32,097 nt of DNA from an uncultured Actinomycetes bacterium (lineage in GTDB: Bacteria; Actinomycetota; Acidimicrobiia; Acidimicrobiales; RAAP-2), in assembly GCA_903860745.1 (NCBI GenBank), contig CAIORQ010000036.1:1-32097 (forward strand), given 5' to 3'. The notes below the pieces were generated by a model. That model was given only the letters and a program-made list of their open reading frames with translations, did not search any database and had not been told where the DNA came from. Below, in pieces: positions 20,475-32,097 of this stretch (positions are counted from its first letter, which is position 1; each line of letters begins with the position of its first letter). The translations under genes were made by a program, and so were the position numbers.

Positions 20475-21130
20475 AGGACGACGTCGAGGAACTCTACGAC
20501 TACGCCGTGGTGCGCGAACTCGCCTCCGCGACGATGTTGATCGTCCGGCCGAGCGCACCCACCTTCGTTCTCGGGGGCAGCCAGGCCCTGGACGTCCTCG
20601 ACCCTGAACGTCGCGCGACGGTGCCGCTTCGTCGACGCCGCGGCGGGGGTGGCGTCGTGCTCCTGCAGCCTGAGGACGTCTGGGTCGACTGGTGGATCCC
20701 CGTCGACGACCCGCGCTGGTCGTCCGACCTGCACGTCACCTCGCGTCTGGCGGGTGGCTGGTGGCGCGAGGTCCTGGCCGAACGCGTCGACGGCGTCGTC
20801 GAGATGCACGAGGGCTCGCTCCAGGGCGACCCGGCGTGGCGCGTCGCGTGCTTCGCCGGTCGCGGACCCGGCGAGGTCTTCGTCGATGGGCGCAAGGCCG
20901 CCGGGGTGACCCAGTGGCGGGTGCGCGAGGGGGTCTTCCTCTCGACGGTGCTGCACTCGGCGTCCTCGCGGCCCATCATCGATCTCCTCGTCGACGTCCC
21001 GGCGGGGCTCGAGGCGGCTCTGGAGCACCACACCCTCGACTCGCTCGCCCTCGACGGCGACGACGTGACGATGGAGCTCGTGACCCGGTCACGGCCCGTC
21101 GACGTGCGTCAACTCTTCCTCCTGGCCTAG
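20471..21130 (+). CDS. lipoate-protein ligase A / octanoyltransferase-like protein
   Basis: The 219-residue protein belongs to the biotin/lipoate A/B ligase fold. R-R-R-R-G-G-G-G-V-V-L-L-Q (residues 54-66) corresponds to the lipoate-binding R-R-x-S-G-G-G-A-V loop. D-G-R-K-A-A-G-V-T-Q-W-R (Lys142) carries the invariant lysine that contacts the acyl-AMP. L-S-T-V-L-H then matches the end of the active-site sheet. It probably transfers a lipoyl or octanoyl group to a protein lysine; ligase and transferase activities cannot be separated by sequence. The Ser of the usual loop is replaced by Gly. The GTG at 20471 overlaps the HNH stop. This is the last gene before the dcw operator. Confidence 0.8.
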   Translation: MKDDVEELYDYAVVRELASATMLIVRPSAPTFVLGGSQALDVLDPERRATVPLRRRRGGGGVVLLQPEDVWVDWWIPVDDPRWSSDLHVTSRLAGGWWREVLAERVDGVVEMHEGSLQGDPAWRVACFAGRGPGEVFVDGRKAAGVTQWRVREGVFLSTVLHSASSRPIIDLLVDVPAGLEAALEHHTLDSLALDGDDVTMELVTRSRPVDVRQLFLLA

Positions 21131-21186: not shown

Positions 21187-21240
21187 CCCTTCACGCCGCG
21201 AGGGGTCTTTGGCCCCAAAAATGTCACAATTCGGTGAGGA

Positions 21241-21286
21241 GTGGTGAATTGTGGAGTATCGTGGAGCGAAATGGAGTCAAGTGGGG
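21241..21286 (+). promoter_or_regulatory. MraZ operator: five phased GTGG-type boxes
   Basis: GTGGTG, GTGGAG, GTGGAG, ATGGAG and GTGGGG start at 21241, 21251, 21261, 21271 and 21281, an exact 10-bp period with 4-bp spacers. MraZ proteins are known to bind arrays of TGG-type direct repeats with this period upstream of their own gene. The last box ends 18 nt before the mraZ ATG. This is strong evidence for autoregulation of the dcw operon. Confidence 0.85.
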
Positions 21287-21304
21287 ACTTGACGAGGGAG
21301 TCGT

Positions 21305-21727
21305 ATGTTGTTGTTCGTCGGCCAATACCAGCACTCACTGGATGACAAGGGTCGACTCATCCTGCCCGTGAAGTTCCGCCGCGAGTTCGAGGGCGGCGGC
21401 CACCTGAGCCCCAATCTCGACGGTTGCGTGGCGTTGTGGACGCCGGGGGAGTTCGCGCGAAAGAGCGCCGAATACCTCGAGGCGGGCCGCCACGGCTCCT
21501 CCGGCGAACGTCGCCAATCACGCTTCTGGGCCACCAACTCCTCCGAAGTCGACTTCGACCGCCAGGGTCGGTTCGCCCTGCCGCCGGTCATCCGCGAGTT
21601 CGCCCGCCTCGAGGGCGACGTGCTGATAGCGGGCAACCTCGACCACATCGAACTGTGGAACCCCCAGCGCTACATCGACCAGGTGGGCGAAGCCGAGGAG
21701 GCGTTCATACAAGGCAGCGACGAGTGA
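21305..21727 (+). CDS. mraZ: MraZ, transcriptional regulator of the division and cell-wall cluster
   Basis: The 140-residue protein contains two AbrB-like swapped-hairpin domains, each with the diagnostic D-x-x-G-R motif: L-D-D-K-G-R-L-I-L-P (residues 13-22) and F-D-R-Q-G-R-F-A-L-P in the second half. MraZ assembles into a ring that binds direct repeats ahead of its own gene and modulates the whole cluster. Family members can also affect RsmH, encoded next. The ATG at 21305 follows AGGGAG, and the N-terminus (F-x-G-Q-Y-Q-H-S-L-D-x-K-G-R) is canonical. The five-box operator lies directly upstream. Confidence 0.97.
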   Translation: MLLFVGQYQHSLDDKGRLILPVKFRREFEGGGHLSPNLDGCVALWTPGEFARKSAEYLEAGRHGSSGERRQSRFWATNSSEVDFDRQGRFALPPVIREFARLEGDVLIAGNLDHIELWNPQRYIDQVGEAEEAFIQGSDE

Positions 21728-21840: not shown

Positions 21841-22782
21841 ATGGCCCAGGACACCTACCACCAGCCCGTTCTCGAACGAGAGATCGTCGAGTTCTTCTCC
21901 CGCACCAGCGCGGGCGTGATCGTCGACGCCACCCTGGGCGGCGGCGGTCATGCCGCCGCGCTGCTCGCCGCTGCTCCCGAGCGTCGCCTCTTGGGAATCG
22001 ACCGGGACCCCGAGGCGCGCGCCGCCGCCGCGACCCGATTGGCGCCCTTCGGAGAGCGGGTACGCATCGTGACCGCCACCTTCGCCACCATGGCCGAGGT
22101 GGTCGCCGACCAGAGCGACTTCCTCGGTGACGAGGGGGTGAGCGGGGTCCTGATGGACCTGGGCGTCTCCTCGCACCAGCTCGACGAATCCCGTCGTGGT
22201 TTCTCCTTCCGCGCCGACGCGCCGCTGGACATGCGCATGGACCCGACCCAGGGGATCACGGCGGCGCAGTACCTCCAGACGGCCGACCTGCACGATTTCG
22301 TCCGACTCCTGCGGGCCAACGGCGAGGACCGCTTCGCCGGGGCCATCGCCCGTTCGGTGCTCGAGCGCCGGCCCACCACCACCGCGGAGCTCACCGAGGC
22401 CGTCGAGCGTGCGGTGCCCATGGCGGCGCGCCGCCGTGGCCACGTGGCCACTCGCGTCTTCCAGGCCCTGCGCATCGTGGTCAACGACGAGGTCGACGAG
22501 CTCGACGCGGGCCTCGCGGCGGCCCTGGACGTCCTGGCCCCCGGGGGCCTGCTCGCGGTGATCTCGTACCACTCGGGGGAGGACCGCGCCGTCAAGGCGG
22601 CCCTGCACGAGGCCGCCACCGGCGGGTGCCACTGCCCCTACGAACTCGGCTGCGTGTGCGGCGCCGTGGCGCGGGTCACGCTGACGCGCGCCAGCGCCCT
22701 GCTGGCGAGCCCCGAGGAGATCGACGTGAACCCCCGCGCGCGTTCCGCGCGCCTGCGCACCGCCCAGAAGGTGGGGCCGTGA
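21841..22782 (+). CDS. rsmH: 16S rRNA (cytosine-1402-N4)-methyltransferase
   Basis: RsmH (MraW) methylates N4 of C1402 in the ribosomal decoding centre, using S-adenosylmethionine. From the ATG at 21841 it has 313 residues, the normal family size, and opens with the canonical Y-H-Q-P-V-L-E. D-A-T-L-G-G-G-G-H and G-I-D-R-D-P form the SAM site, followed by M-D-L-G-V-S-S-H-Q-L-D and D-M-R-M-D, then R-V-F-Q-A-L-R-I-V-V-N-D-E. AAAGG lies 6 nt upstream. An in-frame GTG at 21724 overlaps the mraZ stop and would add 39 residues, a basic tail that the family lacks, so it is less likely. The 3' end overlaps the ftsL-like gene by four bases. Confidence 0.94.
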   Translation: MAQDTYHQPVLEREIVEFFSRTSAGVIVDATLGGGGHAAALLAAAPERRLLGIDRDPEARAAAATRLAPFGERVRIVTATFATMAEVVADQSDFLGDEGVSGVLMDLGVSSHQLDESRRGFSFRADAPLDMRMDPTQGITAAQYLQTADLHDFVRLLRANGEDRFAGAIARSVLERRPTTTAELTEAVERAVPMAARRRGHVATRVFQALRIVVNDEVDELDAGLAAALDVLAPGGLLAVISYHSGEDRAVKAALHEAATGGCHCPYELGCVCGAVARVTLTRASALLASPEEIDVNPRARSARLRTAQKVGP

Positions 22783-23258
22783 GCGTCGTCAGCCTTCCTC
22801 GCCGCGACGTGGTCACCCCACGTCGAGAGAGCGCCCCTCGACCGCGCGTGCGACCATCGACGCGCGTCGCCCCCACGCCGACGACCCGCGCAGCCGCGCG
22901 GCCTCGCCACGCCCATGCCCCGGGTCGTCTGGCGTCGATCTCCGTGCCGCGCAAGTCCGTCGCGGTGCTCGTCGCGGCCATCGTCCTCGCGATGATGGGT
23001 TCGATGTTCGAGACCAACCGTCAGGTCCAACTCCATGAGTTGCAGAGCCAGGTGCTCCAGGAGCAATCGGCCTACGCCGCCCAGGTGGGCTCGCTCACCA
23101 ACCTCTCCGCCCCCAGCGTCGTCGTGTCCCAGGCAAACGCCCTTCACCTCGTGAACCCCACTTCGGTGACCCAGGTTCCCGCCACGTCGCTTGATGCGAT
23201 CCTGCCCCTGCCGAAGTTCACAGGTTACGCACCGGTCACATCAAGGACGCAGCGGTGA
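22779..23258 (+). CDS. ftsL: FtsL-like divisome membrane protein
   Basis: The 159-residue protein sits exactly where ftsL is expected, between rsmH and ftsI. A long basic, Pro- and Arg-rich cytosolic N-terminus (residues 1-58) precedes one membrane helix (about 60-76). A short amphipathic coiled-coil segment rich in Gln and Leu follows (about 80-108), then a tail outside the membrane. FtsL with its partners FtsB and FtsQ activates the FtsWI synthase. Sequence alone is too divergent for certainty, so position and architecture carry the call. The GTG at 22779 overlaps the rsmH stop, and the 3' end overlaps ftsI by four bases. Confidence 0.75.
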   Translation: MSVVSLPRRDVVTPRRESAPRPRVRPSTRVAPTPTTRAAARPRHAHAPGRLASISVPRKSVAVLVAAIVLAMMGSMFETNRQVQLHELQSQVLQEQSAYAAQVGSLTNLSAPSVVVSQANALHLVNPTSVTQVPATSLDAILPLPKFTGYAPVTSRTQR

Positions 23259-25102
23259 GCTCGCGCGCGACCTCGACCCACGCGCGACGCCAGACGACGA
23301 TGCACCCCCCGCACACGTCGACCTTCTCGCCGCGACGACTGCAGCTGGTGCGGGGCATCTTCATCGTGCTCTTCGCCGCCCTGGCCGTGCGGCTCTTCGC
23401 CCTGCAGATGGTCGACCATCGCTACTACGCCACCTTGTCGGTCGGCCAGGTGCGTCACGACCTGACCACGACCGCCCTGCGGGCGGGGGTCTACGACCGC
23501 CACGGCGAGATCCTGGCCATCTCCGAACCGACGTCCTTGGTGGTCGCCGACGACATGCAGATCAGCCAACCCGCCACCGAGGCCCAGGCGCTCGCCGGAT
23601 TGGTCAAGGTGCCCGTGCCGACCCTGACGGCCCTGCTGTCGAAGAGGGGCCCGGGCAGCGGCTACGTGATCTTGAACTCGAACCTGGACCTGAGCGACGG
23701 CAAGGCCATCGCCAACGGGGACTTCCCGGGTGTGGTCGTGCAGAACTCCTCGATGCGCTCCTACCCCGACGGGACCCTGGCGCAGTCGCTCCTGGGACGC
23801 ACCAACGCCGCGGACGTCGGCTCGACGGGCCTGGAGTACCAGTACCAGAGCAGTCTGGCGGGCCAGAGCGGCATCACGCGCGAGTTCGTCTCCTCCTCGG
23901 GGGTCGCCCTGCCGAGCACCTACAGCCGCGTGATCAAGGCGGCCCAGCCGGGGGTGGGGCTCGAACTCACCATCGACGCACCGCTGCAGTTCGTCGCCGA
24001 GCGGGCGCTGGCGACACAACTGCACGCGGTGGGCGGTCTCACCGGCGTGGCCATCGTGATGGACGTCAAGACCGGCGAGATCCTCGCCGACGCCTCGCTG
24101 GTCAACACGGCGACGCGCGCGGGCGTGCTGGGCCCCGTTCCGGCCTGGGGCACGTCGGTCGGCGTGCCGGGCATCGAGCAGACGATCAACAACCTGGGCT
24201 TCACGCAGGCCTACGAACCGGGTTCGGTCTTCAAGGTCGTGACCTTCTCGGCCGCGCTGGCCGCGGGCGACATCACGCCCGAGAGCGTGTTCGCGGTGCC
24301 CAACTCGGTCGTGGTGGGAGGACGTTCGTTTCACGACGCGGAGAACCACGGGCTCGAACACCTCAGCGCCACCCAGGTGCTGGCGCTCTCATCGAACATC
24401 GGCACCTACGAGATCGGGGCACGGGTGGGGGAGAACGGCATCCTCGCCCAGGTGCAGCGCCTCGGATTCGGTCAACTCACCGCGGTCGACTTCCCGGGCG
24501 AGACGGCCGGACTGCTCGTCAACGCCGCCAACTGGTACGCCAGCGACCAGGTGGCCCTGCCCATCGGCCAGGTCGACGCCGTTCCGCCCATCCAGATCCT
24601 CGACGCCTACAACACCATCGCCAACGGCGGCGTCTACGTCGAGCCCAAACTGGTGCGCGGCTTCGTCGAGCCCGACGGCGTGACCAAGGCCACGCTGCCC
24701 AGCGCGTCGCGCGTCGCCCTCACCCCGACCGTGGCCCAGACGATGAACAAGATGCTCGAACAGGTCGTGCTGGCGGGCACCGGCACCAACGCCATCATCC
24801 CCGGCTACCAGGTGGCGGGCAAGACCGGCACGGCCACCATGCCCTACCCGGGCAAGGACCAGCTCCTCACCGGCGACTACAACGCGAGCTTCGTCGGCTA
24901 CGCCCCGGCGAACAACCCGGTGCTGTCGATGATCGTGGTGGTCGAGCGGCCCCAGACCACCATCTTCGGCGGCGCGGTGGCCGCACCGGTCTTCCAGCAG
25001 GTGATGTCCTACGCCCTGCGCCACTACGGCATCCCCTCGAGCGGCACCATCGTCAAGCCGCTCACCGGGACCGGCGCCTCGATCTCTTCGGACGTGACCT
25101 GA
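23255..25102 (+). CDS. ftsI: FtsI/PBP2b-class septal peptidoglycan transpeptidase
   Basis: This 615-residue class B penicillin-binding protein cross-links septal peptidoglycan in complex with FtsW. A cytosolic N-terminus is followed by a membrane anchor (about residues 33-50), then the pedestal or dimerisation domain starting near R-A-G-V-Y-D-R-H-G. In the transpeptidase domain Ser324 is the nucleophile in S-V-F-K (Lys327), the SxN motif is S379-S380-N381, and the third motif is K-T-G beginning at Lys523. There are no PASTA repeats at the C-terminus. It overlaps the ftsL-like gene by four bases and murE by one (TGATG). Confidence 0.96.
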   Translation: MSSRATSTHARRQTTMHPPHTSTFSPRRLQLVRGIFIVLFAALAVRLFALQMVDHRYYATLSVGQVRHDLTTTALRAGVYDRHGEILAISEPTSLVVADDMQISQPATEAQALAGLVKVPVPTLTALLSKRGPGSGYVILNSNLDLSDGKAIANGDFPGVVVQNSSMRSYPDGTLAQSLLGRTNAADVGSTGLEYQYQSSLAGQSGITREFVSSSGVALPSTYSRVIKAAQPGVGLELTIDAPLQFVAERALATQLHAVGGLTGVAIVMDVKTGEILADASLVNTATRAGVLGPVPAWGTSVGVPGIEQTINNLGFTQAYEPGSVFKVVTFSAALAAGDITPESVFAVPNSVVVGGRSFHDAENHGLEHLSATQVLALSSNIGTYEIGARVGENGILAQVQRLGFGQLTAVDFPGETAGLLVNAANWYASDQVALPIGQVDAVPPIQILDAYNTIANGGVYVEPKLVRGFVEPDGVTKATLPSASRVALTPTVAQTMNKMLEQVVLAGTGTNAIIPGYQVAGKTGTATMPYPGKDQLLTGDYNASFVGYAPANNPVLSMIVVVERPQTTIFGGAVAAPVFQQVMSYALRHYGIPSSGTIVKPLTGTGASISSDVT

Positions 25103-26508
25103 TGCAGCTCGGCGACCTCTTCGACGACCAGACCTTCGACGTCGTCACCGCCAGCATCGAGGTGGACCGCGTCGAGATCGACTCTCGAAAGTGCGAGTTC
25201 CCGTCGCTGTTCTTCGCCCTGAGCGGGACGAGCACCGATGGGGCCAAGTTCGTCGCCCACGCCGTGGACCACGGTGCGGTCGCGGTGGTGTCCTCGCGCG
25301 CCGTCGCCTCACCCGTGCCGGTCGTGGTGCTGCCCGAATCGCAGCTCTACGGAGCCTTGGCCCACTGCGCCGCCGCCCTCAGCGGACACCCCGAGGACGG
25401 TCTGAGCCTGGTGGGCGTCACCGGTACGAACGGCAAGACCACCGTCACCACGCTGGTGGCGGCCCTGGTCCGATCCCTGGGATGGAACGGCGCGACCATC
25501 GGCACCTTGACCAACGAGCGCACCACGCCGGCCCAGCCCGAGATGTATCGCACGCTGGCCGCGCTGCGACGCGACTTCGACCCGCAGCGCCACCGGTCGG
25601 TGGTCGCGCTGGAGGTCTCGAGCCACGCCCTCGAGCAGCATCGCGTCGTGGGCAGCCGCTTCGCGGTGGTCGCCTTTACGAACCTGAGTCACGACCACCT
25701 CGACTATCACGGCACCATGGAGGCCTACTTCGCGGCCAAGTCCCGGCTCTTCGCGGCCGAGTACTCCTCGCGGGCCGTCATCTGGGTCGACGATCCCTAC
25801 GGCGCCCGGCTCGCCGACGCCACGCCCGTGGCGGTGGCGCGGGTGTCGCGCGGCGACGCGAGCGACGTGACGGCCACCTTGGGCGGGACGGTCTTCTTCT
25901 GGCGCGGACACCTGGTCAACACGCCCTTGATCGGCGACTACAACATCGACAACGCCCTGGTGGCGATGACCATCGTCTCCCAGCTCGGCGGCGACGACGG
26001 GGCGATCGCCGCGGCGATGGCCGAGGTCGCCGTGGTCCCGGGCCGATTCGAAGTGGTCCACCACGGCGAGTTCACGGTCGTCGTGGACTACGCCCACACC
26101 CCCCAGGGGCTCGAACGGCTCCTCCGCTCGGTGCGCGACCTCGGTGCGCGCCGGGTGGTGACGGTCTTCGGCTGCGGCGGCGAGCGCGACGTCGCCAAGC
26201 GCCCCGAGATGGGTCGCGTGGCCAGCGAACTCTCCGACGTGACCATCGTGACCTCGGATAACCCGCGCAGCGAGGCGCCCGATGCCATTATTGATGCCAT
26301 CATCGCCGGGGCCCTGGCCACCGCCGACGTCGAGCGAGTGGTCGACCGACGCGCGGCCATCGCCCGGGCGTTGGACGCAGCGCAACCCGGCGACGTGGTG
26401 GTGGTGGCCGGCAAGGGTCACGAGACCACGCAGTCCTTCGCCGATCGCGTGGTGCCGTTCGACGACCGTGAGGTCGTCCGAGAATTGTTGAGGGATCGGT
26501 CATGTTGA
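25102..26508 (+). CDS. murE: UDP-MurNAc-L-Ala-D-Glu:meso-diaminopimelate ligase
   Basis: MurE adds the third residue to the cytosolic peptidoglycan precursor. The 468-residue protein has the Mur-ligase ATP loop G-T-N-G-K-T-T (residues 108-114) and the central Mur motifs (E-V-S-S-H-A-L, F-T-N-L-S-H-D-H-L-D-Y-H). In the C-terminal domain D386-N-P-R389 selects meso-diaminopimelate rather than lysine. The cell wall is therefore predicted to contain meso-DAP. Its stop overlaps the mraY start by seven bases, leaving no room for murF, which normally follows. Confidence 0.96.
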   Translation: MQLGDLFDDQTFDVVTASIEVDRVEIDSRKCEFPSLFFALSGTSTDGAKFVAHAVDHGAVAVVSSRAVASPVPVVVLPESQLYGALAHCAAALSGHPEDGLSLVGVTGTNGKTTVTTLVAALVRSLGWNGATIGTLTNERTTPAQPEMYRTLAALRRDFDPQRHRSVVALEVSSHALEQHRVVGSRFAVVAFTNLSHDHLDYHGTMEAYFAAKSRLFAAEYSSRAVIWVDDPYGARLADATPVAVARVSRGDASDVTATLGGTVFFWRGHLVNTPLIGDYNIDNALVAMTIVSQLGGDDGAIAAAMAEVAVVPGRFEVVHHGEFTVVVDYAHTPQGLERLLRSVRDLGARRVVTVFGCGGERDVAKRPEMGRVASELSDVTIVTSDNPRSEAPDAIIDAIIAGALATADVERVVDRRAAIARALDAAQPGDVVVVAGKGHETTQSFADRVVPFDDREVVRELLRDRSC

Positions 26509-27536
26509 GTTTGATGGAGTCGGGCGGCGTGGGTTTCCTGTTCGCCCTGTTCGTCACGCCCCTGTGGATCCGCTTCGTCCGCGAGCGCTCGCTGGGTCAG
26601 CAGATCCGTGAGGACGGTCCCGCCAGTCACCACGCCAAGGCCGGGACTCCCACCATGGGTGGCGTGGTCATCGTCGTCGCGGCGGTGCTCGGCTACCTGA
26701 TGGGCCACGTGGGCACCTCCATCGTCTTCACCCGTGGGGGCATCCTGGCCGTCGGCGTCGTCATCGCCTCGGGCGTCCTGGGCTTCTGGGACGACTACCT
26801 CGGCATCCGCAACGCGCGCAACCTCGGCCTCAACAAGCGCGGCAAGTTCGCCGGTCAACTGGTCATAGCGGTGGCCTTCGCCACCTTGGCCGTCGGCTGG
26901 GTGGGCACGTCGACGCACCTCTCCTTCACCCGCGTCACCCTGCCCGGCTGGCACCTCTCGATCGTCGGCTGGACGGTGCTGGCCATCTTCGTGGTCATCG
27001 CCTCCTCGAACGCGGTGAACCTCACCGACGGTCTCGACGGCCTGGCGGCCGGGTCGGGCGCCTTCTCCTTCGGCGTCTTGTCCATCATCGGCTACTGGCA
27101 GTTCCGCCACTACGCCATCTACCACCTGCACTCGGCCCTCGACCTCGGGCTCGTGGCGGTGGCCCTGGTGGGGGCCTGTCTGGGCTTCCTGTGGTGGAAC
27201 GCCGCGCCGGCGCGCATCTACATGGGCGACACCGGATCACTGGCGATCGGCACGGGCCTGGGCGCGCTGTGCCTCTTGATGAACCTCGACCTCTTGTTGC
27301 CCATCATCGGCGGTCTCTTCGTCGCCGAGACCGCCTCGGTGATCCTGCAGGTCGTGAGCTACCGCGTCTTTCATCGACGGATCTTTCGCATGGCGCCCTT
27401 CCACCACCACTTCGAGCTGCGCGGTTGGCCCGAGATCACCGTGATCATCCGCTTCTGGATCCTGGCCGGCCTGCTGGCCATGCTGGGCCTGGGCATCTTC
27501 TACGGCGACTTCCTGCGAACGGCCAAGGTGGTCTAG
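26502..27536 (+). CDS. mraY: phospho-MurNAc-pentapeptide-transferase (MraY)
   Basis: MraY transfers phospho-MurNAc-pentapeptide to undecaprenyl phosphate, making lipid I at the membrane. The 344-residue protein has about ten membrane helices and the family motifs: G-T-P-T-M-G-G near the N-terminus, the D-D-Y-L-G-I aspartates, N-A-V-N-L-T-D-G-L-D-G-L-A, G-D-T-G-S-L-A-I-G, and the C-terminal loop F-H-H-H-F-E-L-R-G-W with its metal-binding histidines. The ATG at 26502 lies inside the murE 3' end. ftsW follows after 3 nt, whereas many clusters have murD here. Confidence 0.96.
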   Translation: MLSLMESGGVGFLFALFVTPLWIRFVRERSLGQQIREDGPASHHAKAGTPTMGGVVIVVAAVLGYLMGHVGTSIVFTRGGILAVGVVIASGVLGFWDDYLGIRNARNLGLNKRGKFAGQLVIAVAFATLAVGWVGTSTHLSFTRVTLPGWHLSIVGWTVLAIFVVIASSNAVNLTDGLDGLAAGSGAFSFGVLSIIGYWQFRHYAIYHLHSALDLGLVAVALVGACLGFLWWNAAPARIYMGDTGSLAIGTGLGALCLLMNLDLLLPIIGGLFVAETASVILQVVSYRVFHRRIFRMAPFHHHFELRGWPEITVIIRFWILAGLLAMLGLGIFYGDFLRTAKVV

Positions 27537-27539
27537 GCG

Positions 27540-28775
27540 GTGGCCCGGGTGCTCGATCGCCTCCTGCAGCCCTTCCCCCGCGGGGACCGGGCCGGCACCG
27601 CGCTGCTGATCCTCGTCACCGTGATGGTCGGTTACGGCACGGTGATGGTCGCCTCGGCGAGCGACGCCCAGTCCGCGCTCAACGGCGGGACCTCCTTCGC
27701 CCTCGCCGAGCGCGACCTCATCTTCCTCGCCCTGGGAGCCCTCGCGTTCTGGCTGGCCGCTCGCGTGCGTCTCGCGGCGTTGGTGGGCCTGGCGCCCGCG
27801 CTCGTGGGGACGGGACTGGCGCTGCTCGTGGCGGTGGAGCTGGTGGGCGTGACGGTGAACGGGGGAAAGCGCTGGCTCCCCACGCCGGTGGTGCCGATCC
27901 AGCCCTCGGAGTTCTTCAAGCTCTTCGTCGTGCTCTACGTCGTCTGGGTCCTCGCGAACCATCACCGCGACCTCGGCAACTGGCAGCACCTGACCCTGTG
28001 GATGTCACCGGTCATGATCGGTGCGGGGCTCATCCTGCTCGAACACGACCTGGGGACCGACACCGTGGTCGCGGCCATCGCCCTGGCGGTGCTCTTCGTC
28101 GCGGGTCTGCCGGGGCGCCTCGTGCGCGCCATCGTCCTCCTGGCCATCCCCGTGGGCGGCGTCTACGCCCTGGCCGAGCCCTATTCGATGTCGCGACTGA
28201 TGTCCTTCCTGCACCCCAACAACAACCTCTCGACCTCGGGCTACCAGCTGCTGCAGTCGCGCATCGGACTGGGGGCCGGCGGCTTCACCGGTCTGGGTCT
28301 GGACCACAGCCGCGAGAAGTGGGGGCTGTTGCCCAACCCCCACACCGACTTCATCTTCACCATCATCGGAGAGGAACTGGGCCTCATCGGCACGCTCAGC
28401 GTGATCGCTCTCTTCGTCGCCTTCTTGATGGTCGCGACGCGCATCGCGCGCCAGTGCACCAACGAGGTCTACCGCTTGATCGTGGTGGGCGTCGCCGTGT
28501 GGATCGCCCTCGAGGCGGTGATCAACATCGCGTCGGTCGTAGGCTTCTGGGCAGTGACCGGCATCCCGCTCCCCTTCTTCTCCTACGGCGGGACGGCGCT
28601 CATCACCGAGCTCGCCGCGATCGGGCTGCTCTACAACATCGCCCACGACCGCAGCCGGTCGGCGCGCCTGGTGATCACGGCGTCGTCGCCGGGTTTCATC
28701 GCGGTCAGCGCTCCGGCGCGTGCGCCGCGGGCGGCCGTCACGCACCGCAGCCCGAGTCGCGCCCCGCGATCGTGA
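27540..28775 (+). CDS. ftsW: FtsW, septal peptidoglycan glycosyltransferase (SEDS family)
   Basis: The 411-residue SEDS membrane protein polymerises lipid II at the septum with FtsI. About ten membrane helices are visible. Recognisable stretches are V-N-G-G-K-R-W and I-Q-P-S-E-F-F-K-L (the SEDS motif before the large loop), F-L-H-P, then G-L-L-P-N-P-H-T-D-F-I-F near the catalytic loop, and P-F-F-S-Y-G-G at the end of the core. The GTG at 27540 lies 3 nt after the mraY stop. The 3' end overlaps murG by four bases. Confidence 0.94.
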   Translation: MARVLDRLLQPFPRGDRAGTALLILVTVMVGYGTVMVASASDAQSALNGGTSFALAERDLIFLALGALAFWLAARVRLAALVGLAPALVGTGLALLVAVELVGVTVNGGKRWLPTPVVPIQPSEFFKLFVVLYVVWVLANHHRDLGNWQHLTLWMSPVMIGAGLILLEHDLGTDTVVAAIALAVLFVAGLPGRLVRAIVLLAIPVGGVYALAEPYSMSRLMSFLHPNNNLSTSGYQLLQSRIGLGAGGFTGLGLDHSREKWGLLPNPHTDFIFTIIGEELGLIGTLSVIALFVAFLMVATRIARQCTNEVYRLIVVGVAVWIALEAVINIASVVGFWAVTGIPLPFFSYGGTALITELAAIGLLYNIAHDRSRSARLVITASSPGFIAVSAPARAPRAAVTHRSPSRAPRS

Positions 28776-29871
28776 CGCGCCCCGTGGTCCTCACGGGGGG
28801 TGGGACCGGGGGGCACATCTTCCCCATGCGCGCCGTCGCCGAGGCCCTCGGTGAGCTCGGCGTCGCAGCGCAGGACATGCGCTACGTCGGCTCGCGCCGC
28901 GGTCAAGAGGCCGCCCTGCTCGGTGGCGGACCCGTCGCCCTGACCCTGTTGCCCGGACGCGGGATCCGGCGCTCGCGGCGAACCTCGCCGCCCTGACGGG
29001 GCTGGCCGCGGCGATGGCGCGGGCCCTCTACGACGTCGGTCGCTGGCGGCCCAGGGTCGTGGTCTCGGTGGGCGGCTACGCGGCCGCGGCGGTGGCGACC
29101 GCGGCGGTGCTCTGGCGACGTCCCCTCGTGCTGGTGGACCTCGACGCCACGCCGAGCGTCACGCACCGGCTCCTGGCGCGCTTCGCGACCGTGCGCTGCG
29201 TGGCCCTGGGGGAGGCGTCGGCGGGCGTGGTGGTCACCGGCGCGCCGGTGCGTCAGGACCTGGCCGGCATCGATCGCTCGACGGAAGGGCGCCAGAGCGC
29301 CAAGGCGCGTCTGAGCCCCCCGATCGACGCCGGCCGGCGGGTCGTGGTGGTGATGACCGGCTCCCTGGGGGCCACCCGGGTCAATCGCGCCGTGGTCGAG
29401 CTCGCCGAGCGCTGGCGCGACCGCGACGACCTCGCGCTCGTGCAGGTCACCGGACGTCGCGACCACCAGTGGGTGCTCGCGTCACGTCCCGCGGTGGGCC
29501 GCCTCGACTACCGGGTCATCGAGTTCGCCGAGATGGCCACGTGGTGGGCGGTGGCCGACGTGGCGATCTGTCGCGCCGGGGCCATGACCGTGGCGGAGTT
29601 GACGGTCCTGGGCCTGCCGGCCATCCTGGTGCCCCTGCCGGGCGCGCCGGGCGACCACCAGGGTCACAACGCCCGCAGCCTCGCGTCGGCCGGCGCGGCC
29701 GTGGTGGTGACCGACGCGCACTGCGATGCGCCGACCCTGGACCGAGAGGTCGCCGAGATGCTCGAGGGCGCGCGCTGGGACGAGATGTCGCGCGCCGCCA
29801 AACGCTTGGGCCGGCCCGACGCCGCTCGCGAGATCGCCCGCGTGGTCCTGGCGACGGGGGAGGGGTCGTGA
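28772..29871 (+). CDS. murG: MurG, UDP-GlcNAc:lipid I transferase, frame broken near 28950-28975
   Basis: MurG adds GlcNAc to lipid I to form lipid II. From the GTG at 28772 (overlapping the ftsW stop) the first frame gives T-G-G-G-T-G-G-H-I-F-P, the donor and membrane-side glycine-rich loop, then Y-V-G-S-R-R-G-Q-E, and stops at 28996. The rest of the family sequence continues from about 28972 in the frame one base back: L-A-A-N-L-A-A-L, S-V-G-G-Y-A, the UDP-binding I-C-R-A-G-A-M-T-V-A-E-L, and P-G-D-H-Q-G-H-N-A-R. Joining the two gives about 366 residues, the normal length. A missing base in the sequence is the simplest explanation, because MurG is essential. No slippery heptamer suggests programmed frameshifting. 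The usual H-E-Q-N segment reads V-D-L-D-A-T-P. Confidence 0.85.
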
Positions 29872-32097
29872 GCCTGTCGGCGGGCACCCGAGTGCACGTG
29901 GTGGGCGTGGGCGGCGCGGGTATGAGCGCCCTGGCGGTGCTGCTGGCCGAGTCGGGCTGTGCGGTGAGCGGCTGTGACGCGGGCAACGCCGCGGTGCTGG
30001 CGGAGCTGGCGGCTCGCGGCGTCGCCGTCGCGGCGTCGCACGACGCGCACCACGTGGAGACGGCCGACGTGGTGCTGTGGTCCCCGGCGGTTCGCCTCGA
30101 CCACGAGGAGCTGGCGGCCGCGCGCGAGCGGGGCGTGACGATGATGGCTCGTCCCCAGGTGCTCGCCGAACTCTCGCGCACGATGCGCCTGGTGGGCCTC
30201 ACGGGCACCCACGGCAAGACCACCGCGACCTCGATGCTGGTGTGCATCATGGCGGCGGCCGGGCGCGACGACGCCCGCCTGGTGGGAGCGCCGATCCGCG
30301 GCGTGGGCTTCAGCGGCCACTTCGGTCCCGGTGACCTGCTGTGCGAGGTGGACGAGAGTTACGGGGCCTTCGCCGAACTGAACCCCTACGCGCTCGGGCT
30401 GCTCAACGTCGAGCCCGACCATCTCGACCACTACGGGACCCTCGAGAACCTCGAGGCCGCCTTCACGGCCGTGCTCGAGCGCACGACCGGCCCGGTGGTG
30501 GTCTGGGGCGACGACCCGGGCGCGGCCCTCGTCGCGCGCCACGCCCTTCGCGACGTCGTGCGGGTGGGAACCACCGGCGACGTCGAGTGGCGCGTCGGCG
30601 ACCTGCGCGTCTCGCCGGGCTCCGCGCTCTGCGTGCGGGCACGACTGAGCGGCGAGGTGGAGCTGGACCTGGAGTTGCGCGTGCCCGGCGCGCACAACGT
30701 GGCCAACGCCGCGGTGGCGGCGGTGCTCGCCCTGTCACTCGGGGTGGCCCCCGTCGACGTGACCCGGGGGCTGGCCGCCTTTCGCGGGGCGCCGCGGCGT
30801 TTCGAACCGGTGGGCCACTGGCGTGGCGTGCCGGTGATCGACGACTACGCGCACCTGCCCGGGGAGATCGCCGCCACCGTGGCCGCCGCGCGCGCCCTCG
30901 GCTACGAGCGCGTGGTGGCGGTCTTCCAGCCCCACCGGGTGACGCGAACCACCGCCCTGGCCGCGCAGTACGCGCCCGCCTTCGACGGACTCGCCGGCGT
31001 GGTGGTGACCGACATCTACCGCGCGGGCGAGGCGAACCCCGCGGGGGTCACCGGGGAGGTCGTCGCCGCCCCGCTCCGGGAGCGGGGTCTGACGCCGGTG
31101 CTCTACGAGCCCACCCTGGCCGACGCCGCGCGGGGGCTGGCCGAGCTGGGGTCGGGCGCCGACCTGCTGCTCGTGCTGGGGGCGGGCGACGTGACCGGGG
31201 TGCTCGACCTCCTGGGTCTCGACTCGACGAGCGCCGCGCACTTCTTGGGCGAGGATCCCCGCGTCGCCTACGACGCCGCCCTCGGAGCACGAACGACCTA
31301 CCGCGTGGGTGGCACCGTGAGCGCCCTGGTGACCCTGTCGTCGCTCGCGGACCTCGACGAGCTCTCGGCGGCGCTGGTCGCGGCGCGGCGCCCCCTGTGG
31401 GTGGTGGGCAACGGGTCGAACCTGTTGGTCGCCGACGGGCCCCACGACGTGGTCGCGCTGCACCTGAGCGGCGACTTCGACACCCTGGCGGTCCTCGACG
31501 GCGAGGGCGACGTCGTGGAGGTGGTGGCGGGCGCCGCGATGGACCTGCCCGTGGCGGCGCGACGCCTCGCGGGCGAGGGCATCACCGGCTTCGAGTGGGC
31601 CGTGGGGGTGCCCGGCACCTTCGGCGGGGCGGTGGCCATGAACGCGGGCGGGCACGGTTCGGACATGAGGGCCAGCGTGACGCGCGTGGAGGTCTGGTCC
31701 GAGGGACGACGCCGGTGGCGCGAGGCCGCCGAGATGGACTTCTCGTATCGCCACAGCGCCCTGCGACAGGGCGAACTGGTGACGCGCGTCGAACTGCGCC
31801 TGGGTCGCGGTGACCCTGACCGGTCCCGGGCGGCGATCGGGGAGATCGTGCGCTGGCGGCGCGAGCACCAACCCGGTGGCGCGAACGCGGGGAGCGTCTT
31901 TCGAAATCCCGAGGGGGACTCGGCCGGCCGGCTCATCGAGGCCGCGGGTCTCAAGGGTGCACGGGTGGGATCGGCGCGCGTCTCGGAGAAACACGCGAAC
32001 TTCATCATCGTCGACCCCGGCGGCACCGCGGGCGACGTCGCGGCCCTGATGGAACTGGTCCGCCGCTCGGTGGCCGATCGCTTCGGCGTTCTGCTCG
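29868..32097 (+). CDS. murC-murB: MurC-MurB fusion protein (3' end beyond the window)
   Basis: A single frame from the GTG at 29868, overlapping the murG stop, stays open to the right edge (743 codons). Residues 1 to about 450 are MurC (UDP-MurNAc:L-alanine ligase): V-H-V-V-G-V-G-G-A-G-M-S-A-L, ATP loop G-T-H-G-K-T-T (113-119), E-V-D-E-S, and D-D-Y-A-H-L-P in the C-terminal part. After a short linker, residues from about 470 are MurB (UDP-MurNAc dehydrogenase, FAD-dependent): T-T-Y-R-V-G-G, G-N-G-S-N-L-L, G-V-P-G-T-F-G-G-A-V-A-M-N-A-G, Y-R-H-S, A-G-S-V-F-R-N-P with the proton-donor Ser, and K-H-A-N-F. The two steps are consecutive (MurB makes UDP-MurNAc, MurC consumes it), so fusion could channel the product. 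Only about the last 10-25 residues of MurB should be missing. Confidence 0.92.
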   Translation, partial: MSLSAGTRVHVVGVGGAGMSALAVLLAESGCAVSGCDAGNAAVLAELAARGVAVAASHDAHHVETADVVLWSPAVRLDHEELAAARERGVTMMARPQVLAELSRTMRLVGLTGTHGKTTATSMLVCIMAAAGRDDARLVGAPIRGVGFSGHFGPGDLLCEVDESYGAFAELNPYALGLLNVEPDHLDHYGTLENLEAAFTAVLERTTGPVVVWGDDPGAALVARHALRDVVRVGTTGDVEWRVGDLRVSPGSALCVRARLSGEVELDLELRVPGAHNVANAAVAAVLALSLGVAPVDVTRGLAAFRGAPRRFEPVGHWRGVPVIDDYAHLPGEIAATVAAARALGYERVVAVFQPHRVTRTTALAAQYAPAFDGLAGVVVTDIYRAGEANPAGVTGEVVAAPLRERGLTPVLYEPTLADAARGLAELGSGADLLLVLGAGDVTGVLDLLGLDSTSAAHFLGEDPRVAYDAALGARTTYRVGGTVSALVTLSSLADLDELSAALVAARRPLWVVGNGSNLLVADGPHDVVALHLSGDFDTLAVLDGEGDVVEVVAGAAMDLPVAARRLAGEGITGFEWAVGVPGTFGGAVAMNAGGHGSDMRASVTRVEVWSEGRRRWREAAEMDFSYRHSALRQGELVTRVELRLGRGDPDRSRAAIGEIVRWRREHQPGGANAGSVFRNPEGDSAGRLIEAAGLKGARVGSARVSEKHANFIIVDPGGTAGDVAALMELVRRSVADRFGVLL

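Follow-up and report, generated by a model that had tools for sequence, protein, structure and literature searches.

An exactly phased five-slot array of MraZ boxes that probably straddles the core promoter of a dcw cluster

The window, the whole stretch of 32,097 nucleotides analyzed here, is contig C36 of a draft genome of 2.13 Mb (110 contigs, 96.6% complete). It carries mraZ and rsmH followed on the same strand by further division and cell-wall genes (Table 1), the layout that places a dcw cluster promoter upstream of mraZ. The two PF02381 repeats of the MraZ protein score 42.9 and 34 bits against a cut-off of 23. A DxxxR motif in both repeats is a hallmark of MraZ, and the corresponding D13..R17 and D85..R89 show no variation across 13 sequences. 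Among NCBIfam models, TIGR00242 matches best (E 8.4e-24), scoring 84.1 bits and thus below the equivalog cut-off of 98.35. The AlphaFold model (mean pLDDT 89.3) adopts the MraZ fold, with a TM score of 0.84 to 1n0e. Downstream, the start of rsmH could be at 21724, where an in-frame GTG overlaps the stop codon of mraZ, instead of at 21841; ftsL was not identified. The first-pass annotation had described the cluster as ending with murC-murB; that end is the end of the contig, at 32097 and inside murB.

Table 1. Features of the mraZ upstream region and of the gene cluster that follows it, in window coordinates.
Feature	Position	Strand	Basis
Slot -1, weak in-phase box-like ATGTCA	21221..21226	+	TGGCA in two close relatives
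Slot 0, decayed in-phase box TCGGTG	21231..21236	+	TGG core in 40/68 genus, 7/7 close relatives
MraZ box slot 1, GTGGTG	21241..21246	+	TGG core in 60/68 genus
MraZ box slot 2, GTGGAG	21251..21256	+	TGG core in 60/68 genus
Probable -10 hexamer TATCGT (spacer 2 and first letters of box 3)	21257..21262	+	Conserved signature
MraZ box slot 3, GTGGAG, overlapping the -10 hexamer	21261..21266	+	TGG core in only 29/68 genus
Conserved spacer CGAA, predicted transcription start about here	21267..21270	+	Start inferred from the -10
MraZ box slot 4, ATGGAG	21271..21276	+	TGG core in 65/68 genus
MraZ box slot 5, GTGGGG	21281..21286	+	TGG core in 59/68 genus
Probable ribosome-binding site GAGGGAG	21294..21300	+	Sequence
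mraZ, 140 aa, two MraZ repeats, only copy found in the genome	21305..21727	+	PF02381 twice
rsmH (mraW)	21841..22782	+	TIGR00006, 281.9 bits
ftsI-type transpeptidase	23255..25102	+	Penicillin-binding protein families, all below cut-offs
murE, start approximate	25120..26508	+	TIGR01085, 454.5 bits
mraY	26502..27536	+	TIGR00445, 310.9 bits
ftsW	27540..28775	+	TIGR02614, 317.3 bits, below cut-off 337.5
murC and murB in one open frame, running off the contig end; true start after 29469	29469..32096	+	TIGR01082, 354.6 bits; TIGR00179, 165 bits; both over cut-off

The box array lies in the 3' half of the 174-bp gap before mraZ (the preceding open frame stops at 21130), with box 5 starting 24 nt upstream of the ATG. 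The five boxes that the first-pass annotation had reported can be read directly from the plus strand: all conform to RTGGNG and begin at 21241, 21251, 21261, 21271 and 21281, so that all four intervals are exactly 10 bp, without drift. Searching the window with up to three mismatches returned the five-box pattern perfectly at 21241-21286 only, along with its two adjacent registers at two mismatches; no match at this tolerance appeared in 100 shuffles of the window. Dinucleotide shuffling of the local 310 bp, repeated 20,000 times, gave perfect runs of two boxes at most (56 shuffles), compared with the five observed, and runs of at most four when one mismatch per box was allowed (9 shuffles). 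Across the genome, a three-box pattern has three perfect matches, every one of them a register of this same array. Three further matches with one mismatch (on contigs C7, C40 and C82) were rejected as additional operators, the reversed-pattern control giving the same number.

Direct repeats with a GTGG core and a 10-bp step, at least three in number (here five perfect ones), situated directly upstream of mraZ and conserved together with it in relatives, make up the profile of an MraZ operator. Because the array adjoins the only mraZ of the genome and is conserved with mraZ, the operator assignment first proposed from the sequence stands, and the array can almost certainly be taken as the auto-operator of MraZ in the dcw cluster.

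Seven close relatives, chosen by MraZ identity (at least 80% over the whole length; L149, with 85% over 55 residues, was excluded), encode MraZ proteins 81-86% identical to that of the window. Compared over the mraZ upstream region, the window and all seven of these relatives keep five in-phase TGG boxes, the alignment showing no gaps inside the array; the phased repeats are thus present in close relatives, where their absence would have counted against an operator. Slot 1 of L070 reads GTGGTT, which leaves TGG in all five slots of that sequence. Within the boxes, 19 of the 20 columns of the TGG.G core are invariant, as are three of five columns at box position 1 and two of five at position 5. 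Spacers 1 to 4 have 0, 2, 4 and 1 invariant columns out of four. Two of the 4 bp 3' of slot 5 are invariant, conservation extends past slot 1 into the 40 bp upstream (15/40 columns), and the 60 bp beyond this near flank, aligned without gaps, have no invariant column. This pattern is as expected if the core letters are read by a protein and spacers 2 and 3 by the polymerase. It also bears on the suggestion that affinity is graded between central and outer boxes: the letter that differs is box position 5, which carries only 0.1-0.7 bit and varies among relatives (two of five columns invariant, against 19/20 in the core). Since their difference falls at this degenerate position, nothing marks the outer boxes as special, and the grading proposal was dropped.

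At the position where the window has only its decayed slot 0, 10 bp before slot 1, all seven close relatives have a sixth in-phase box, which reads TTGGNG in six of them and TTGGTA in the seventh. One slot further upstream, slot -1 of the window has a profile score of -9.1 and by this measure is not a box. Immediately 5' of slot 0, close relatives have in common an element resembling a palindrome around TTGTCACAA (window 21217-21231; L049, L054, L055); AATTGTCACAATT is exact in three of eight sequences, and the element is degenerate in the window. It may be the site of another regulator or a decayed in-phase box.

To place the array in a wider context, 214 mraZ upstream regions were collected from the genus, family, order, class and phylum, a few other phyla and E. 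coli K-12. Removing L013 (cut gene) and ten duplicates left 203 regions; L032, which is too short, was also left out of the profile test (202). The genus set combines 20 loci from a first search with all 58 matches of a second, the family set the best 30 loci of 69 matching genomes outside the genus (L013 dropped, one other added), the order set 29 new loci of 55 matches, and the phylum set 69 of 97 other matches. The sample leans towards close homologues, and its sequences are related, so that the counts below are not independent events.

Among the first 113 non-redundant regions, runs of at least five boxes with one mismatch allowed in each number 48 at step 10 and none at any other step from 6 to 16; shuffles of these regions gave a run of four in 11 of 3,390 cases and never a run of five. 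Five slots are not confined to the genome of the window: 64 of 68 genus members can be fitted to a frame of five without gaps, the exceptions being L037, L039, L040 and L150. In the 64 aligned members, the box score counts slots 1 to 5 as filled in 98, 97, 48, 100 and 91%, slot 0 in 59%, slot -1 in 22% and slot 6 in 8%; the low occupancy of these last two led us to reject a longer array as the rule, with L034 and L050 as exceptions. Between slot 5 and the start codon the spacing is variable (23-28 bp in 55/64), and the phase inside the frame is constant. The genus members L034 and L050 each have nine boxes in phase upstream of mraZ; none of these boxes has more than one mismatch, and six in succession are perfect. 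A nine-box run in L108 contains just two consecutive perfect boxes in G-rich DNA and may be partly due to chance.

Slot 3 is the variable member of the frame. It lacks TGG in 35 of the 64 aligned members, and slots 1, 2, 4 and 5 are all TGG in 27 of these 35; where slot 3 has TGG (29/64), all five slots have it in 23. In 27 of the 64, slot 3 reads GTGTCA, mostly followed by CGAA, directly 3' of the -10 (e.g., L041 and L082). The TGTCA letters of this alternative also occur in slot -1 of the window. A substituted slot 3 depresses plain run counts, and a slot-anchored profile was used for this reason.

Plain runs of at least five boxes (one mismatch each) occur in 31/68 genus, 18/30 family, 11/30 order and 1/2 class sequences, in 8/65 from the rest of the phylum and in 0/7 from other phyla; the E. 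coli run is four. Requiring a strict TGG core reduces these to 24/68, 0/30, 2/30 and 1/2 from genus to class and 0/65 in the phylum. Sequences from the family and order (L003-L032, L096-L124; L170 and L177) share the gap-free five slots of the window. Unlike the window's genus, with TGG, the family mostly has GGG in slots 2 and 5 (TGG in 3/29 and 10/29, respectively). Runs of five full TGG boxes are thus mainly a mark of the genus, and five slots with GGG in 2 and 5 are common in the family. Elsewhere in the phylum, three is the commonest box number (33/65), and TGG cores fall in slots 1 to 5 in 21, 40, 56, 53 and 23 of 65 sequences.

A single gap-free frame scores above 8 in 122 of the 130 sequences from genus to class, a cut-off set without a shuffle control; the weakest fits, at about 17-30, are loose, and L151 and L168 look register-shifted. 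For a controlled comparison, a 50-bp profile of slots and spacers was trained on 63 genus sequences and set against pooled shuffles (40 of each sequence). The family and order sequences took no part in training here, unlike in the frame fit. The profile was seeded by rule from 26 five-slot members with TA in spacer 2, so the genus figures lean towards the frame. It exceeds the highest pooled shuffle in 66/68 genus, 29/29 family, 26/30 order and 2/2 class sequences, as well as in 45/65 from the phylum, 5/7 from other phyla and E. coli; outside the order, the matches are partly ordinary MraZ boxes.

The array also probably straddles the core promoter. Spacer 2 is conserved as TAnn, and with the GT that opens box 3 it forms TAnnGT; the T, A and final T of this hexamer are the hallmark letters of a -10 element. 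All three are present in 61/68 genus, 27/29 family, 23/30 order and 23/65 phylum sequences, in family and order at the same place between slots 2 and 3 as in the window. Seventeen bp before the signature, TTGAC is found in 20/29 family and 17/30 order sequences, where the two elements together read as a standard promoter. The genus of the window differs from this arrangement: TTGAC occurs at that position in 0/68 sequences, and the further box of slot 0 has TGG in 40/68. A generic sigma-70 scan called no canonical promoter in the window, so in the genus it is the conservation of the -10 letters that argues for one. The CGAA spacer is found in 45/68 genus and 17/29 family sequences, and a transcription start near it would give a leader of about 36 nt; for comparison, the E. 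coli mraZ leader is 38 nt (excerpt of PMC5089854). The composite of operator and -10 constitutes a 50-bp signature for spotting dcw promoters in uncultured relatives.

Known MraZ sites share the repeat architecture and differ in its extent. The Mollicutes site, (AAAGTGKN3)3 in the excerpted text of PMC5282649, is an MraZ-bound set of direct repeats with a GTG core at the dcw promoter; the window array resembles it in its repeats and 10-bp period and departs from it in having five repeats instead of three and a GTGGNG instead of an AAAGTGK core. Two cryo-EM entries for Mycoplasma genitalium MraZ with DNA, 9r4j and 9sz7, by title place a homologous protein on its promoter, and the window MraZ model superposes on them with TM scores of 0.80 and 0.81. 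By its title, 'MraZ in complex with 4 box promoter', 9sz7 has one box fewer than the five of the window, which has a decayed slot in addition. The region upstream of mraZ in E. coli K-12 (L180) has GTGGGA, GTGGGG and GTGGGA and a weaker GGGGTG at the same step of 10, that is, three TGG boxes and one GG box where the window has five. Its boxes begin about 6 nt before the transcription start and run past it, going by the 38-nt leader in the PMC5089854 excerpt, and do not surround the -10 as in the window. The earlier view that five boxes are more than usual is borne out against the traced cases, the three-repeat Mollicutes site (as excerpted in PMC5282649) and the four-box entry 9sz7 (by title), and an array of more than four boxes is absent from the MraZ literature covered in excerpt (PMC5138195, PMC8475190, PMC9602371, PMC5282649, PMC5089854, PMC9395523). 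In its predicted function, the array is an ordinary MraZ operator; its new part is the extended, promoter-embedding five-slot frame of this lineage.

The reading we favor, with a probability of roughly 0.88, is that the array is an MraZ auto-operator at which bound MraZ excludes RNA polymerase and shuts down mraZ and the cluster. Binding, ring geometry, repression, start site and control of the downstream genes are all predicted here, and we infer occlusion of RNA polymerase as the best mechanism. Each subunit of the MraZ ring would grip one GTGG box, on roughly one face of the DNA. The boxes would span about -28 to +18 around the predicted start, with boxes 1 and 2 in the promoter spacer, box 3 on the -10 and boxes 4 and 5 on the first transcribed bases. 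Given these positions, occupancy should block initiation, and bound MraZ could not coexist with the polymerase. As MraZ accumulates, mraZ would be turned off and, via a common transcript, so would rsmH, ftsI, murE, mraY, ftsW and genes beyond. Such control of the downstream genes, also claimed by the first-pass annotation, is plausible from their order. In M. genitalium, according to the excerpted PMC8475190, MraZ represses its own cluster, the motif occurs once in the chromosome (a single array is likewise seen in the genome of the window), and deletion of MraZ raises mraW, MG_223 and ftsZ. Repression is not universal, MraZ raising dcw cluster expression in Neisseria elongata (excerpt of PMC9395523).

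It is quite possible, if somewhat short of an even chance, that only four boxes are engaged at a time, as in the Mycoplasma complex, the fifth slot of the MraZ operator being passive. The title of the solved complex, 9sz7, with its 4-box promoter fits this, as do the 35 aligned genus members without a slot-3 TGG, 27 of which keep exactly the other four. Those four, however, are spread over five slots, slot 3 forming a gap in phase, and it is the five-slot span that is kept; of the remaining 29 members, 23 have TGG in every slot, and L034 and L050 reach their nine in-phase boxes. Five intact boxes are nonetheless not essential on sequence comparison, since slot 3 lacks the TGG core in 39/68 genus members. 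With five slots, the ring could probably bind in more than one register or gain a further contact on top of four.

With a box every 10 bp and a helical repeat of about 10.5 bp, each box is rotated by about 17 degrees relative to the one before, and a rigid ring on five boxes would therefore need overtwisted or bent DNA or a register shift. We offer as a tentative and rather doubtful extension that the MraZ operator of this order of Actinomycetota is a phased track of five slots (up to nine in some genomes) around the promoter, that MraZ binding goes further than one ring on four boxes, whether the ring opens, a second ring joins or one ring shifts register, and that the steepness with which the division cluster is shut off depends on slot number. 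As a division regulator, MraZ is widespread, and the role of box number is unexplained in the literature covered. The arrays of at least five exactly phased boxes in this lineage, against mostly three in the phylum, are natural substrates for asking how a closed ring reads a linear array.

An activating MraZ site, perhaps compensating for a missing -35 element, is improbable. The absence of TTGAC in the genus (0/68, against 20/29 in the family) together with a TGG in slot 0 (40/68) would suit such a role, and MraZ activation has its precedent in the excerpted Neisseria elongata study (PMC9395523). Yet a protein bound at boxes 3 to 5, which cover the -10 and the bases downstream of it, would block the polymerase, and family members that do have TTGAC carry the same five slots. 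BldC-like proteins exemplify regulators that bind tandem repeats, and it is very improbable that one of these, or MtrA, binds the array with the vicinity of mraZ incidental. Dietzia MtrA does bind the mraZ promoter (excerpt of PMC9602371), but step-10 GTGG repeats precede mraZ in 5/5 Anaerolineae loci, a Deltaproteobacterium locus and E. coli K-12, and a search of 61 genus genomes for a perfect four-box pattern hit 27 times in 14 genomes, in each case directly before mraZ (none in the reversed control, and no such run in 47/61). One Bacilli locus (L064) has a single box before mraZ.

Several features of the downstream cluster deserve mention in their own right. The murG profile (28778-29871, +) is split over two frames, 27191-28996 (weak, 25 bits) and 29014-29871, and murG looks frameshifted, by assembly error or by a real change. 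The best murF-like match (below cut-off) and murD (over cut-off) are located on contigs C6 and C63, outside the murE-mraY-ftsW cluster. At 29469-32096, the MurC profile covers residues 142-578 and the MurB profile residues 598-876 of one uninterrupted open frame, which suggests a MurC-MurB fusion. In most other searched genus members, the MurB side alone matches, in frames mostly of about 300-370 aa with a few longer; in G107 and G125, the match extends across the MurC-MurB junction almost from end to end, uninterrupted by a stop.
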